A DNA stretch of 64,000 nucleotides, taken from the NCBI RefSeq assembly GCF_035645195.1, contig NZ_DASQNA010000033.1, positions 124,001 through 188,000 on the forward strand, in the 5' to 3' direction. This DNA is from Paenibacillus sp. GTDB lineage: Bacteria; Bacillota; Bacilli; Paenibacillales; YIM-B00363. The first letter of the stretch is position 1, and every line of letters starts with the position of its first letter. The position numbers were made by a program, and so were the translations under genes. Positions 8,679 to 31,004 of this stretch are shown in pieces. The notes below the pieces were generated by a model. It saw nothing but the letters and a program-made list of their open reading frames with translations, made no database searches and was not told the DNA's origin.

Positions 8679-8747
8679 GTTGCACCGCAAGCGGGGCATT
8701 TCAGGCGACGATCATGTATAGTGGAATGGAAGAAAGGAGGTGTCCGG

Positions 8748-9440
8748 GTGAGCTATCGCATATTGATCGTCGACGACGACCGGGACATCGCCGGTTTGAT
8801 CGAGATTTATTTGCGCAACGACGGATACGACACGGTGAAGGCGCACGACGGCGAAGAAGCGCTGCGGAAGCTGGAGGAGGAGGCGCCGATCCATTTGGTC
8901 GTGCTCGACATCATGATGCCGAAGCTGGACGGGCTGGCCGTCTGCCGGCGCATCCGGGAGGATCGGGCGCTGCCGATCTTGATGCTTAGCGCTAAAGCCG
9001 AGGACACGGACAAAGTGCTGGGCTTACTCACCGGAGCCGACGATTACATGGTAAAGCCGTTCAACCCGCTGGAGCTCAGCGCGCGGGTGAAGTCGCTGCT
9101 GCGCCGGGCGTACCGGCTGTCGGCCGAGGCGAGCGCGCCGGACGACGCCATCCGCATCGGGCCGCTGCGCATCGACAAGAGGACGTTCCGCGCGGACGTC
9201 GACGGCAAGCCGCTCCATTTGACGACGACCGAATTCGGCATCTTGCATTTGCTCGCGAGCTATCGCGGCCAGGTGTTCAGCGCCGAGGACATTTTCCAGC
9301 AGGTGTGGAAGGAAAAGTATTTCGATTCGAACAATACGGTCATGGTCCATATCAGCCATTTGCGGGACAAGCTCGAGCAGGAGACGGGCGATAAAATGAT
9401 CGTCACCGTGTGGGGGGTCGGCTACAAAATTGACGCATAA
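8748..9440 (+). CDS. OmpR-family response regulator (VanR/YkoG-like)
   Basis: A 230-residue regulator with a receiver domain (VDDD acidic patch at the N-terminus, phospho-acceptor D54 in VVLDIMMP, conserved MVKPF lysine) and a C-terminal winged helix ending in TVWGVGYKID. It starts at GTG 8748 behind AAAGGAGGTG. It overlaps the sensor kinase gene by 11 bases, so the two form a coupled pair. Phased TCTTAAG repeats upstream suggest autoregulation. The regulon is unknown; the same repeats precede the small-protein gene at 11177. Confidence 0.93.
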   Translation: MSYRILIVDDDRDIAGLIEIYLRNDGYDTVKAHDGEEALRKLEEEAPIHLVVLDIMMPKLDGLAVCRRIREDRALPILMLSAKAEDTDKVLGLLTGADDYMVKPFNPLELSARVKSLLRRAYRLSAEASAPDDAIRIGPLRIDKRTFRADVDGKPLHLTTTEFGILHLLASYRGQVFSAEDIFQQVWKEKYFDSNNTVMVHISHLRDKLEQETGDKMIVTVWGVGYKIDA

Positions 9441-10554
9441 CCTCGTTCGCGCGCTCGTGCGCAAGTTTATGCTGCAGCTCGTATACAGCGCGCTCGGCTC
9501 GGCCGTCTTGACGTTCGCGACGGCGCTGCTCGCGGCGGGCGCCTATGACCTTATGATCGTCGGCGGTTTGATCCGGCTGCTGCTCGATCTGCTTCCTCCG
9601 GAAGTGTGGGCCGTCCTGGTCCTGCTCTTTTATTTCGTCGCGATTTTGGTTTGGTTCCAATGGAGGCGCTACCGATATTACGGCGAAATGATCGCCTCCG
9701 TGCGCCGCATCGCCGAGGGCCGCTTCGACGTCGAGGTGCCCGTGAAGCAGGCGGACGACTTCGGCGTGCTCGCGGCCGACATCAATTCGCTGATCGCCCG
9801 GCTGCGCGCCTCGATGGAGGAGGAGCGCCTCGCGGAGCAGACGAAAAACGAGCTGATTACGAACGTATCGCACGATCTGCGGACGCCGCTGACGTCGATT
9901 CTCGGCTATCTCGGGTTGATCGACGACGACAAATACCGAGACGAGGTCGAACTGCGCTATTACGTACAAATCGCTTACGCCAAAGCGAAACGGCTGCATG
10001 CGCTGATCGACGATCTGTTCGAGTATACGCGGATGCGCCACGGCGGATTGCCGCTGCGCAGCGCGACGTTCAACGTCGCGGAGCTTCTCGGCGAGCTGCT
10101 CGCGCAGCATCGGCTTCAGCTGGAGCGGGCGGGCGTCGAGGGGACGCTGTCGGTCCCGGAAGCGCCGGCGTTCGTCGTCGGCGACCCGGACAAGCTCGTC
10201 CGCGTGTTCGAAAATTTGCTGACGAACGCGATTCGTTACGGCAGCGACGGGAAGCGGGTCGACGTCGCCGTCCGTTCGGAAGGCGACGAGGCGGTCGTCG
10301 ACGTCGTCAATTACGGCGAGCCGATCCCCGCGGCGGATTTGCCGTACATATTCGACCGGTTTTATCGGGCGGACAAATCGCGGACGGCCGCGGCGGACGC
10401 CGGCGGCTCGGGGCTGGGCCTCGCGATCGCGAAGAGCATCGTCGAGAAGCACGGCGGCTCGATCGCCGCGTTCAGCGACGCGCGCAGTACGATGTTTCGG
10501 GTGAGGCTGCCCGCCGCCCCGCCGCCCGTCCGGAAACGGAAAGCCGGCGAGTAG
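9430..10554 (+). CDS. Sensor histidine kinase, VanS-like, short sensor
   Basis: A 374-residue membrane kinase. Two membrane helices (about 15-38 and 57-76) flank only some 18-20 extracytoplasmic residues, so the signal is probably sensed in or at the membrane rather than by a large external domain. A HAMP-like linker follows, then HisKA with phospho-acceptor H148 in VSHDLRTPLTS, and HATPase with N-box NLLTNAIRYGS and the GGSGLGLAI glycine box. The start is TTG 9430, overlapping the regulator's stop. The TAG stop shares its final base with the first unit of a 51-bp tandem repeat array. Confidence 0.92.
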   Translation: MTHNLVRALVRKFMLQLVYSALGSAVLTFATALLAAGAYDLMIVGGLIRLLLDLLPPEVWAVLVLLFYFVAILVWFQWRRYRYYGEMIASVRRIAEGRFDVEVPVKQADDFGVLAADINSLIARLRASMEEERLAEQTKNELITNVSHDLRTPLTSILGYLGLIDDDKYRDEVELRYYVQIAYAKAKRLHALIDDLFEYTRMRHGGLPLRSATFNVAELLGELLAQHRLQLERAGVEGTLSVPEAPAFVVGDPDKLVRVFENLLTNAIRYGSDGKRVDVAVRSEGDEAVVDVVNYGEPIPAADLPYIFDRFYRADKSRTAAADAGGSGLGLAIAKSIVEKHGGSIAAFSDARSTMFRVRLPAAPPPVRKRKAGE

Positions 10555-10945
10555 TCGGAGGTATTCCGATTGCATCGGTCCCCGCGGCGAATTTGGCGCC
10601 AATAGTCGGAGTTACTCCGACGAACTCAGCCCCTGCGGCGGATTTGGCGCCAATAGTCGGAGTTACTCCGACTAATTCAGCCCCTGCGGCGGATTTGGCG
10701 CCAATAGTCGGAGTTTCTCCGACGAACTCAGCCCCCGCGGCGGATTTGGCGCCAATAGTCGGAGTTACTCCGACGAACTCAGCCCCTGCGGCGAATTTGG
10801 CGCCAATAGTCGGAGTTACTCCGACGAACCCAGCCCCTGCGGCGGATTTGGCGCCAGTAGTCGGAGTTTCTCCGACTAATTCAGCCCCTGCGGCGGATTT
10901 GGCGCCAAAAGTCGGAGTTACTCCGACTACCCTCGCCCTCGCAGT
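10554..10945. repeat. 51-bp tandem repeat array, seven full copies plus a partial, each with two palindromes
   Basis: Units start at 10554, 10605, 10656, 10707, 10758, 10809, 10860 and 10911, exactly 51 bases apart. Each contains GTCGGAG-TTA/TTT-CTCCGAC (7-bp dyad, 3-base loop) and, centred about 35 bases later, the palindrome TTGGCGCCAA. Copy 1 is the most diverged; copies 3 and 7 share a GACTAATTC variant, and copies 4 and 7 share the TTT loop. The array fills the gap from the kinase stop to just before the next regulatory region. Since 51 is a multiple of three, open frames run through it on both strands, but it looks non-coding. No spacers are present, so it is not CRISPR. Its role is unknown. 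Confidence 0.95.
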
Positions 10946-11176: not shown

Positions 11177-11428
11177 GTGCGATTCGACGAAAAATTGAAG
11201 CTGCTGAAGCGGTACGAACACGCCGTGTTCGCCGCTTGCGTGCACGTGCTGACGGACGAGCGCCGGGCGATTTTGGCGTCGAAGGAGACGCTGATCGATC
11301 TGTTCCGGGACGAAGCGTTCCCGACGGCTTCCGAGGAGGAGCGGACGCGGAAGCTTCGCTCCGCCGCCGCTAAACAGTGTATTCGACTATATTCGAAGGA
11401 AAGAGGGTTCGCAAATGCAAACGTATGA
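11177..11428 (+). CDS. Small protein resembling an isolated sigma-70 region 2
   Basis: An 83-residue soluble protein. The order of residues (LLKRYEHAVFAACVHVL, then LIDLFRDEAF, then a helix with KQCIRLYSKE) is reminiscent of ECF sigma factor region 2.1-2.2, but there is no region 4 and the segment is short. It could be a degenerate sigma-like protein or an unrelated helical protein; confidence in that likeness is low. GTG 11177 is chosen (GAGGTGA about 11 bases upstream); GTG 11162 is an alternative adding five residues. The 3' end overlaps the following membrane-protein gene by 14 bases, implying coupling. Confidence 0.7.
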   Translation: MRFDEKLKLLKRYEHAVFAACVHVLTDERRAILASKETLIDLFRDEAFPTASEEERTRKLRSAAAKQCIRLYSKERGFANANV

Positions 11429-12464
11429 GAAACAACCGACGATCGCCCTGCTGCTGGCGGTCATCCCAGGGGTCGGCCATTTGTACTGGGGCCAATACAT
11501 CAAAACCGTTCTTTACGGCGGGGCGGCGCTGACGCCGCCCGCGCTGTTCGCCGCGGTCACGCTGTTCGAGGGCCGCATCATCCCGGAGCTGTTCTTCCTG
11601 GCGCTGGCCGGCGTCATCGTCGTCTGGTGCGTGAACATGGCCGACATGGCGCTGACGCTGTCCCGGGGCGCCGCCGCGACGGCCGCCGCCCCGGCGGATG
11701 CGGCGCAGCGCGATCGGGCGCTGGCGACGGCGCTGTCCCTGATTCCCGGCGCCGGCCATGCATACGCCGGCGCGCCGCGGCGCGGACAGCTGTACTTCGC
11801 CGCCGCGCTCGCCGCGCTCGCGGCGCCGCTTGCGGCCGCGATCATGTTCGGCGAGCCCGCGCTGCTGCTGCTGTGGCTCGCGCTGCCCGCGCTCATGCTG
11901 GCGGCCGCCGCCGACGCTGCCGAATCGCTCCGCCGGAAGGAGTTCGGCGCGCTCGCGGCGGACGAGACGGCGGCCGAGATGTGGCTCGCGCCGGCGGCGA
12001 ACGGCGGGCGTCCCGCCGTCGCCCAATTGCTTTCGGTCGTCCCGGGAGCGGGACATGTGTATCGGGGCGAAACCGGCAAGGGGCTGCAGCTGCTGGGAGC
12101 CGCGTTGCTGCTGCTGTACGCCAAGACGGAACTGAATCTGAGCATCGCCGCGTTCGTGTTCCCGGCGCTGTGGGCGTTCGCCTTAGCCGACCTCCGGCAG
12201 AGAGCGTTCGGCGCGGCGCGGGAATCAGCGGATGTCGACGCGCCGCTGCTCACTCCGGGCGCGCAGCGGTGGGCCGGAGCGGCGTTCATCGCCGTCGGCG
12301 CGTACATGGCGATCGACCGGATCGCGCTGGACGCTCTGGCGGCCTTGCTGCCGAACGTCCATTGGCATTATGAATTCCGCCGCTGGTCGGAAGCGATTTT
12401 CGCCTCGATCGCGCTGCTCGCGGCAGGCGTCGCCCTGCTGAGCCGGGGCGGCCCTCGCCGATAA
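11415..12464 (+). CDS. Multi-pass membrane protein with three PGxGHxY repeats
   Basis: A 349-residue, alanine- and leucine-rich membrane protein with roughly nine hydrophobic helices. The motif [IV]PG[AV]GHxY appears three times (IPGVGHLYWG near 18, IPGAGHAYAG near 110, VPGAGHVYRG near 207), each followed by a basic/Gln turn and two hydrophobic helices. This is the arrangement of TM2-like or DUF5683-like small membrane modules, here triplicated; a final unrepeated helical pair follows. Its function is unknown. It is coupled to the 83-aa gene upstream and ends at a strong terminator, so the two form one unit, probably under the adjacent two-component system. Confidence 0.85.
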   Translation: MQTYEKQPTIALLLAVIPGVGHLYWGQYIKTVLYGGAALTPPALFAAVTLFEGRIIPELFFLALAGVIVVWCVNMADMALTLSRGAAATAAAPADAAQRDRALATALSLIPGAGHAYAGAPRRGQLYFAAALAALAAPLAAAIMFGEPALLLLWLALPALMLAAAADAAESLRRKEFGALAADETAAEMWLAPAANGGRPAVAQLLSVVPGAGHVYRGETGKGLQLLGAALLLLYAKTELNLSIAAFVFPALWAFALADLRQRAFGAARESADVDAPLLTPGAQRWAGAAFIAVGAYMAIDRIALDALAALLPNVHWHYEFRRWSEAIFASIALLAAGVALLSRGGPRR

Positions 12465-29333: not shown

Positions 29334-31004
29334 ATGTCATCGGCGGCCGAGCGATTCGTGAAGCTTGTTGCCGGCGTTCGCGGACGACTGATGAGGCAGC
29401 GGCTCGTCCGATATGCGGCGCGCGGGTTCGCGGCCGGCGCGGCGGCGGCCTGCGCGCTCGGCGCGGCCGGCTTCGCGCTGCCGATCGCGCATTATCGGCT
29501 GGCGGGAGCGCTGCTGCCTGCGGCGTTCGCTTTGGCGGGCGCGGCGGCCGCCTGCTTCCGCCGGCCGACGCTCGAGGACGCCGCGCGGGCGATGGACCGC
29601 CGCGGCGGTCTCGAGGAGCGAATCGCGACGGCGCTCGCCTACCTCGGCGACGACGGCCCGATCGCCCGGCTGCAGCGGGAGGAAGCGCTGCGGCGCGCGG
29701 AGGCGTTCGCGGCCGCGGCGCGCGAGCGGCTGCCGAATCCGCCGCTAGGGCGGACGATCGGTTCGGCGGCCGCGGCGCTGCTCGCGTTCGCGCTGCTGGC
29801 GTCGCTGCCGAACCCGATGGACGGCGAGCTCGCGCGTCGCGCGGCGGAGCGGGAGGCGGTCGCGGATATGACCGAGGAGGCAGGGCGGCAGCTCGACGAG
29901 CTTCGTTCCGCCGCGCTGCCGCCGCTCGAGCGGGAGGCGCTGGAGCGCGAGCTGTCGGCGTTGGAGGCCCGTCTGAGCGACGCTCCCGCGTCCGCTGCGG
30001 CGCTCGAAGCGCTCGAGGAGGCGTTGGAGCGGCTTCGGGACATGGAGCGGCTTGCGGCGGCGGAGGCGGCTTCGGCGGAGCGGTGGCGGGAGCTGGCGGC
30101 TAGCCATCCGGCGCTGGCGGCGCTCGCCCGGCGGGATCTCGACCGCGCGTCGGCGGATGCGGCGCTCGCGCAGCTGCGCGGCGAGGCCGCGCGGATGACG
30201 CCGGAGCAGAAGGAGCGGCTCGCCGCGGCGCTGGAGGAGCTCGCCGCCTCCGCGGCCGCGCCGGACGCCGAAGCCGAGCGCAGGCTGCGGGAGGCGCTGG
30301 AGCGCCTGGCGGCGGAAGCGCGCGGCGCGGTAGGCGCGTCGGGCGAGATGGACGCGGAGGCGCTCGCGGCGGTGCGGGACGCGCTGCTCGCGGCTGCGGC
30401 GTCGCAGGCTGCGGCGCAGCGGCTGGCGGAAGCGGCCGCGCAGGCGGGCGCGGGGCTCGCCGCGGCGGGGCTCGGCGCGGCCGAAGGGCTGTCAGCCGCG
30501 GGGGCGGCGCTGCCGGCGGATTGGCGCGCGGACGGCGCTGCCGCTCGCGCCGCCGAAGCCGCGGTCGCAGGCGCGGCGGACGGCGTCGAGACGGCGGAAG
30601 GCGGAAGCGGCGGTCAAGGCGCAGGCGGTGGAACCGGCGGAAGCGGCACAGGCAGCGGAACCGACGGAAGCGGCGCAGGCGGCGGAACCGGCGCGGGCCG
30701 CGGCACCGGCCCGGGAGGCTCCGGGGCAGGCGTCGGCGCCGGCTCGCGGGAGCTGGTCAGCACGCCGCGCGCGGCGAACGGCGGCGGCTCGCCGTCCGTC
30801 GATTCGGGACCGGTGCGCGGCGGCGGCGGCGACATTTCGGAAGGCGGCAGCGCTCCGGCGCTCGACGGCGCGGCGCGACCGTACGAAGAGGTGTTCGCGG
30901 AATACGAAGCCGAAGCGGCGCGTTCCTTGCCGCGGTCGACGCTGCCGCAAGGGATGCAGGAGCTCGTCCGCGATTATTTTACGGAAATTCAACCGAACCG
31001 GTGA
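29334..31004 (+). CDS. Ala-rich coiled-coil membrane protein (DUF4175-like)
   Basis: A 556-residue protein. Two N-terminal hydrophobic helices (about 28-48 and 53-72), a short cytosolic segment with EDAARAMDRRGGLEERIATAL, a third helix (about 140-160), then some 270 residues of Ala/Glu/Arg-rich heptad-like sequence suited to long coiled coils, a Gly/Ser/Thr low-complexity linker (about 420-480) and a conserved-looking end (EVFAEYEAEAARSLPRSTLP). The layout resembles DUF4175-type proteins that accompany MoxR and vWA genes. High Ala content makes similarity searching unreliable. It could be a scaffold between the membrane and the MoxR ATPase (inference). Confidence 0.82.
   Translation: MSSAAERFVKLVAGVRGRLMRQRLVRYAARGFAAGAAAACALGAAGFALPIAHYRLAGALLPAAFALAGAAAACFRRPTLEDAARAMDRRGGLEERIATALAYLGDDGPIARLQREEALRRAEAFAAAARERLPNPPLGRTIGSAAAALLAFALLASLPNPMDGELARRAAEREAVADMTEEAGRQLDELRSAALPPLEREALERELSALEARLSDAPASAAALEALEEALERLRDMERLAAAEAASAERWRELAASHPALAALARRDLDRASADAALAQLRGEAARMTPEQKERLAAALEELAASAAAPDAEAERRLREALERLAAEARGAVGASGEMDAEALAAVRDALLAAAASQAAAQRLAEAAAQAGAGLAAAGLGAAEGLSAAGAALPADWRADGAAARAAEAAVAGAADGVETAEGGSGGQGAGGGTGGSGTGSGTDGSGAGGGTGAGRGTGPGGSGAGVGAGSRELVSTPRAANGGGSPSVDSGPVRGGGGDISEGGSAPALDGAARPYEEVFAEYEAEAARSLPRSTLPQGMQELVRDYFTEIQPNR

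Follow-up and report, generated by a model that had tools for sequence, protein, structure and literature searches.

The stretch of Paenibacillus sp. DNA analysed here (64,000 nucleotides, hereafter the window) contains a tandem array of 51-bp units that starts at the very end of a sensor histidine kinase gene, raising the question of whether its palindromes act as double-stranded DNA sites, as hairpins in a transcript, or only in the spread of the element itself. TRF returned it as by far the top array of the whole window (period 51, 6.8 copies, 92% matches, 0 indels, score 605), and alignment in 51-base rows resolved eight palindromic cores, every interval being exactly 51, that span 10554-10927; they make up seven full units and, at the end, a core followed by a partial linker of ~17 nt (Table 1). 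The first core is degenerate and supplies the kinase stop codon TAG (10552-10554), starting on its last base, which is also the end of the ORF (10554); register, coordinates and start of the array are thus confirmed as originally described. The variants that had been noted as shared among copies 3, 4 and 7 are likewise real (TAATTC in 3 and 7, a TTT loop in 4 and 7), and the picture of a tandem noncoding array shaped by local duplication or conversion is supported. By contrast, the claim of two palindromes per unit is not supported: the second, TTGGCGCCAA, does occur six times in the window array but was absent from all other arrays read in the genus, and so belongs to the linker of this particular array rather than to the element, no conserved second structure having been seen. 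Elsewhere in the window, GC-rich low-complexity repeats with periods of 9, 18 and 27 bp lie at 30388-30710 within an ORF (29334-31004).

Table 1. Features of the array and its surroundings, in positions of the window
Feature	Coordinates	Core	Strand	Remarks
OmpR-type response regulator, partner of the kinase	8721..9440		+	
Sensor histidine kinase (HAMP, HisKA, HATPase_c)	9430..10554		+	directly 5' of the array; stop overlaps first core
Unit 1 core, degenerate GTCGGAGGTATTCCGAT	10552..10570 including stop codon	10554-10570		TA + first base = kinase stop TAG
Linker 1, 34 bp	10571..10604			51-base row alignment
Unit 2, core + linker	10605..10655	10605-10621		
Unit 3, core + linker	10656..10706	from 10656		TAATTC variant
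Unit 4, core + linker	10707..10757	from 10707		TTT centre
Unit 5, core + linker	10758..10808	from 10758		
Unit 6, core + linker	10809..10859	from 10809		
Unit 7, core + linker	10860..10910	from 10860		TTT centre; linker with TAATTC variant
Unit 8, complete core + degenerate partial linker (~17 nt)	10911..10944	10911-10927		
Conserved intergenic block TTCTTAAGAAATCTTATG...GTTCTTAAA	11068..11115		+	sequence comparison; probable promoter of the next operon
Small ORF, downstream gene	11177..11428		+	kept in the genus, 44-47% identity
Membrane-type protein, downstream gene	11415..12464		+	DUF6677 match

The window array belongs to a genus-specific satellite with about a dozen related intergenic arrays in the same genome (G000, 5.95 Mb), in which pattern searches, on which all genome-wide counts given here rest, located 63 exact copies of GTCGGAG-NNN-CTCCGAC, nearly all of them within ~12 arrays (the window array and ~11 others). 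Exact copies number 155 in G001, which holds at least 14 arrays with distinct linkers, 35 in Paenibacillus sp. RH52_bin.063 (G002) and five in G004, where four of the five are solitary cores. Paenibacillus alkalitolerans (G003) gave 175 core-type matches, mostly to ACCGGAG-NNN-CTCCGGT, a version whose changes are matched on both arms. No arrays were found in G005, of the same genus, its core matches being at background only. The family is therefore present in five of the six species examined, with two periods and two core versions (GTCGGAG...CTCCGAC in G000, G001, G002 and G004; ACCGGAG...CTCCGGT in G003); the GTC-type arrays share a TA-GTCGGAG-NNN-CTCCGAC-TA core and a period of 51-52 bp, and their 34-bp linkers differ from array to array. 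The search of related genomes that had been proposed for the unit thus uncovered both further arrays and copy-number variation, and recurrence of the family in independent genomes rules out an assembly artefact confined to one contig. Arrays do break the draft assembly: contig C38 of G000 ends inside one, and its flank resembles that of C40 (L028, L029). Among the other genera of the order, 387 genomes outside the genus and its family neighbours gave no convincing 51-bp-spaced core pair (two chance-level matches, 3 mismatches), and no 52-bp-spaced pair was convincing either (two unrelated matches). The collection scan also gave matches in Nocardiopsis, Streptantibioticus and other taxa; these look unrelated, as they share only the short core of the pattern and differ in flanks and linkers, and Bacillus sp. 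MM2020_1 (L045) was set aside with a single 51-spaced pair, its genome holding two cores of the type.

The original prediction recognised no known repeat class; the arrays fit, in every feature tested, the published 52-nt noncoding satellites of Firmicutes. These satellites have a constant repeat of 52 nt (51-53) with variable sequence, were found in ~30% of the Bacillus species studied (Subirana & Messeguer, PMC8161180), are particularly abundant in Paenibacillus, carry species-specific short signals that are often present with their reverse, and have been proposed to support protein polymerisation on DNA or to give rise to small RNAs (PMC8161180). The arrays described here are similarly noncoding and of constant 51-53 length, form several families per genome that differ in sequence, run from 4 to >30 copies with a length not conserved between strains, and bear in all units a short species-specific signal and its reverse. 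The class itself is thus already published, but the genus of our arrays lies outside the coverage of PMC8161180, and new here are a measured core-versus-linker constraint, the resolution of the signal into a single palindrome whose two half-sites flank a free centre, the species-wide core switch, and a weak linker consensus that ties the families of one genus to one common ancestral unit. As judged from the consensus units published in Table 1 of PMC8161180, of which 14 of 27 contain an inverted repeat beyond that of shuffles at p<0.05 (combined p 2.6e-11), a palindrome appears to be a general feature of the 52-bp units of this class.

Spacing is nearly invariant, with 221 of the 237 intervals at 42 loci in four species measuring 51 bp, 11 measuring 52 and 3 measuring 50. 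The P. alkalitolerans loci have 52 bp in 73 of 81 intervals, and 52-bp arrays or units also occur in G001 and G002. Linkers are alike within an array and mostly different between arrays; at two loci (L067 and L072) two linkers alternate to give a 102-bp super-period, and at another (L083) unrelated linkers follow one another at 52/51 spacing. When the linkers were oriented, a weak consensus emerged (TACAGGCC.C....GGGCC......GGCGAAATA) whose inner information amounts to 8.45 bits versus 3.34 +/- 0.25 in shuffles, and which can be recognised by eye, with one extra base, in the P. alkalitolerans linkers. On this basis an independent origin of the linkers was rejected, and the arrays descend from one ancestral unit.

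Arrays differ between species by whole units. Several array loci are orthologous between species, and the copy number at such loci extends from none, or a single core, up to 32: the 11 copies of L068 correspond to one core at L081, with flanks that are ~95% identical and meet the array on both sides, and the 32 copies of L066 correspond to one core at L082. At shared loci the core is kept and linkers are identical at 7 to 17 of 29 positions, as against 77-86% identity of the flanks. A synteny comparison of the P. alkalitolerans arrays with those of the other species revealed no convincing shared position. Growth by a fixed-length duplication of the flank around a single core was considered and rejected, since the length over which flanks match the linkers ranges between 0 and 34 nt on each side and defines no constant cut.

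Averaged within arrays, diversity amounts to 0.119 in the linker and 0.116 in the three central bases of the core, but to 0.018 in the stem, ~6.5-fold below the linker; of 20 arrays, 19 have a stem less diverse than their linker (Wilcoxon p 1.9e-6). Since the arrays were found through the core, the search favours conserved cores between arrays; comparison within arrays avoids most of this bias, as no array showed a missing copy. Each unit contains one conserved palindrome composed of two half-sites, TAGTCGGA and TCCGACTA in the species of the window, around a free centre of 3-5 bp, together with a rapidly changing linker that maintains a unit length of 51 or 52 bp. The centres TTT and AAA are equally common in linker-oriented units, and we observed the flip between them once within a single array (L027:3004-3377) and at ~1:1 across arrays, as if the centre inverts.

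The distribution of mismatches bears on the form in which such a palindrome might be recognised. An RNA hairpin is expected to protect the pair that closes its loop and to tolerate G-U pairs. Among 268 cores, the loop-closing pair is mismatched in 31, the outermost pair in 15, and pairs 3-6 in 3, 0, 2 and 5, respectively; mismatches at the loop-closing pair have moreover been amplified through arrays (9 of 10 in L061, 19 of 21 in L126 of P. alkalitolerans) and are also carried by further G001 arrays. On the sense strand, stem mismatches show no preference for G-U over A-C (15 to 15). A free loop-closing pair without G-U bias favours two double-stranded DNA half-sites over an RNA hairpin. L061 also contains a higher-order repeat in which two versions of a mismatched core, TTAATCCGAC and ATTGTCCGAC, occur together.

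The arrays are located at the 3' ends of genes and are for the most part absent from divergent promoters. With gap orientation taken from a simple codon-usage gene caller, 13 arrays lie in convergent gaps, 24 in tandem and 2 in divergent ones (raw counts over the array-bearing gaps only), and in 22 of the 24 tandem gaps the array is closer to the 3' end of the preceding gene.

Comparison of the related species suggests that the fixed part of the unit is a candidate binding site for a DNA-binding protein, and the likeliest reading of the arrays, to which we assign a probability of roughly one half, is that they are phased palindromic sites for a putative dimeric protein of this kind. The palindrome would be the double-stranded DNA site of the dimer, and a spacing of ~5 helical turns would place neighbouring dimers on nearly the same face of the helix, where they could contact each other and bind cooperatively. 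The outcome would be a local nucleoprotein array downstream of genes, which might for example act on supercoiling, form a roadblock or help to organise the nucleoid. Within each array, slippage or unequal exchange would keep changing copy number and linker sequence, and selection or the specificity of the protein would hold half-sites and spacing. That all copies present exactly the same face, as originally proposed, is true only approximately: at 10.5 bp per turn, 51 bp correspond to 4.86 turns and 52 bp to 4.95, and because 51 bp is not an exact multiple the phase drifts by ~50 degrees per unit, the originally proposed binding-protein reading with about five turns per unit itself being supported. 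On the other hand, a mobilising enzyme, or gene conversion among the arrays, could account for conservation of the core in place of a host function, and the absence of arrays from G005 indicates that whatever they do is dispensable.

More tentatively, and at somewhat below even odds, the constant-length satellites of Firmicutes may at large be binding arrays for a lineage-specific dimeric DNA-binding protein that co-evolves with its palindrome. We take the matched two-position change on both arms in the sampled P. alkalitolerans arrays, along with the change of period from 51 to 52, as fitting such co-evolution. If correct, the satellites would be the equivalent, in bacteria, of satellite binding of the CENP-B-box or ParB-like kind, located at gene 3' ends. 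Few abundant repeat classes of bacteria are, like the 52-nt satellites, without a function, a mobilising enzyme or an explanation of their fixed length, and the two cores, two periods and graded orthologous loci of this genus render the constancy of length testable, in the form of asking which protein binds the half-sites and whether it differs by core type.

The main rival to sites for a host protein, which we nonetheless consider unlikely, is a selfish REP- or MITE-like element devoid of host function, whose palindrome is recognised only by the enzyme that mobilises or amplifies it and whose location at gene 3' ends reflects selection against insertion elsewhere. The dispersal of copies, the occurrence of single cores in G004, an expansion that uses different cores in different species, absence from G005 and a 3'-end bias like that of REPs (PMC3733652) are all consistent with it. 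With REP/BIME elements the arrays share short GC-rich palindromes in high copy, intergenic in convergent or tandem and rarely in divergent gaps. They differ, however, in their strict tandem register and constant period, with units head-to-tail rather than alternating, and in lacking a constant tetranucleotide tag, the bases before the core being variable (AATA, TGTA, TGCA, TTTA) where REP/BIME have GTAG/CGTC. Nor did searches with PF01797 and NF047646 find a Y1/RAYT transposase in any of the six genomes of the genus, with positive controls. CGTC REPs have been reported to lack a RAYT. REP/BIME elements have DNA gyrase, IHF or Pol I as binding partners. The linkers point to one common ancestor, yet no insertion footprint was identified, and a selfish origin alone leaves unexplained why length is constant across unrelated sequences in other Firmicutes.

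Improbable, in our estimate, is that the array functions after transcription, folding at the 3' terminus of the kinase mRNA into successive hairpins that would protect this end, substitute for a terminator or serve as a source of sRNA. The transcript of the window array folds far better than shuffles (z = -10), but the palindromes alone account for this score, as they would in any palindrome array. The orthologous gap, located via the gene with the DUF6677 match, holds no array in G001 and G004 and has an intrinsic terminator in its place, as such a role would have it; the conserved block of Table 1 is also kept in these array-free gaps. Transcription of the 52-nt satellites of B. coagulans is documented (PMC8161180, PMC8625621). 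Against this, neither a U-tract nor a terminator was found at the window array, the 13 arrays between convergent genes would be transcribed from either side, and the original alternative of a row of short hairpins is not supported, since mismatches concentrate at the loop-closing pair and do not prefer G-U over A-C. Conserved linker structure is likewise lacking: a second hairpin is visually suggestive in many GC-rich linkers, but was rejected because the folding of 39 linkers was no better than that of shuffles (Stouffer -1.3) and covariation between columns did not rise above noise (z>3 in 2 of 465 pairs). Rfam gave sub-threshold chance matches only.

A neutral satellite, arising by chance tandem duplication of the ancestral 51-bp unit and maintained by concerted evolution with nothing bound, would explain the descent from one unit that the linker consensus reveals and the free variation in copy number, but we regard it as very improbable, since neutral homogenisation does not predict a stem 6.5-fold less diverse than the linker of the same arrays. 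Finally, a protein-coding repeat (17 residues, VGVTPT...) or a CRISPR-like array is scarcely credible: one reading frame on each strand stays open across the window array, yet neither ORF has a Pfam match and the 50-, 52- and 53-bp intervals of related arrays break any frame, so that translation as a conserved protein, named at the outset as fatal to a noncoding array, fails; and the arrangement of palindromic repeats parted by spacers of ~30-34 bp resembles CRISPR in its dimensions, but these spacers are nearly identical within an array, the dozen or more arrays per genome lie at gene 3' ends, and Cas1 (PF01867) was found in none of the six genomes of the genus.

Other tandem repeats were seen along the way. 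An unrelated repeat of ~105 bp (CGCACCACCATGCAGCAC...GTGCACATCGCC) adjoins a two-core array in G001 (L058:3100-3480) and in G004 (L080). The actinobacterium Nocardiopsis chromatogenes carries a 51-bp array of 14 near-identical units (L034, 4898-5612) whose sequence is unrelated to this family. In Cohnella panacarvi (L054, 4044-4250), a 51-bp tandem repeat of unrelated sequence with a strong CGTTG/CAACG inverted repeat may likewise belong to the 52-nt class.
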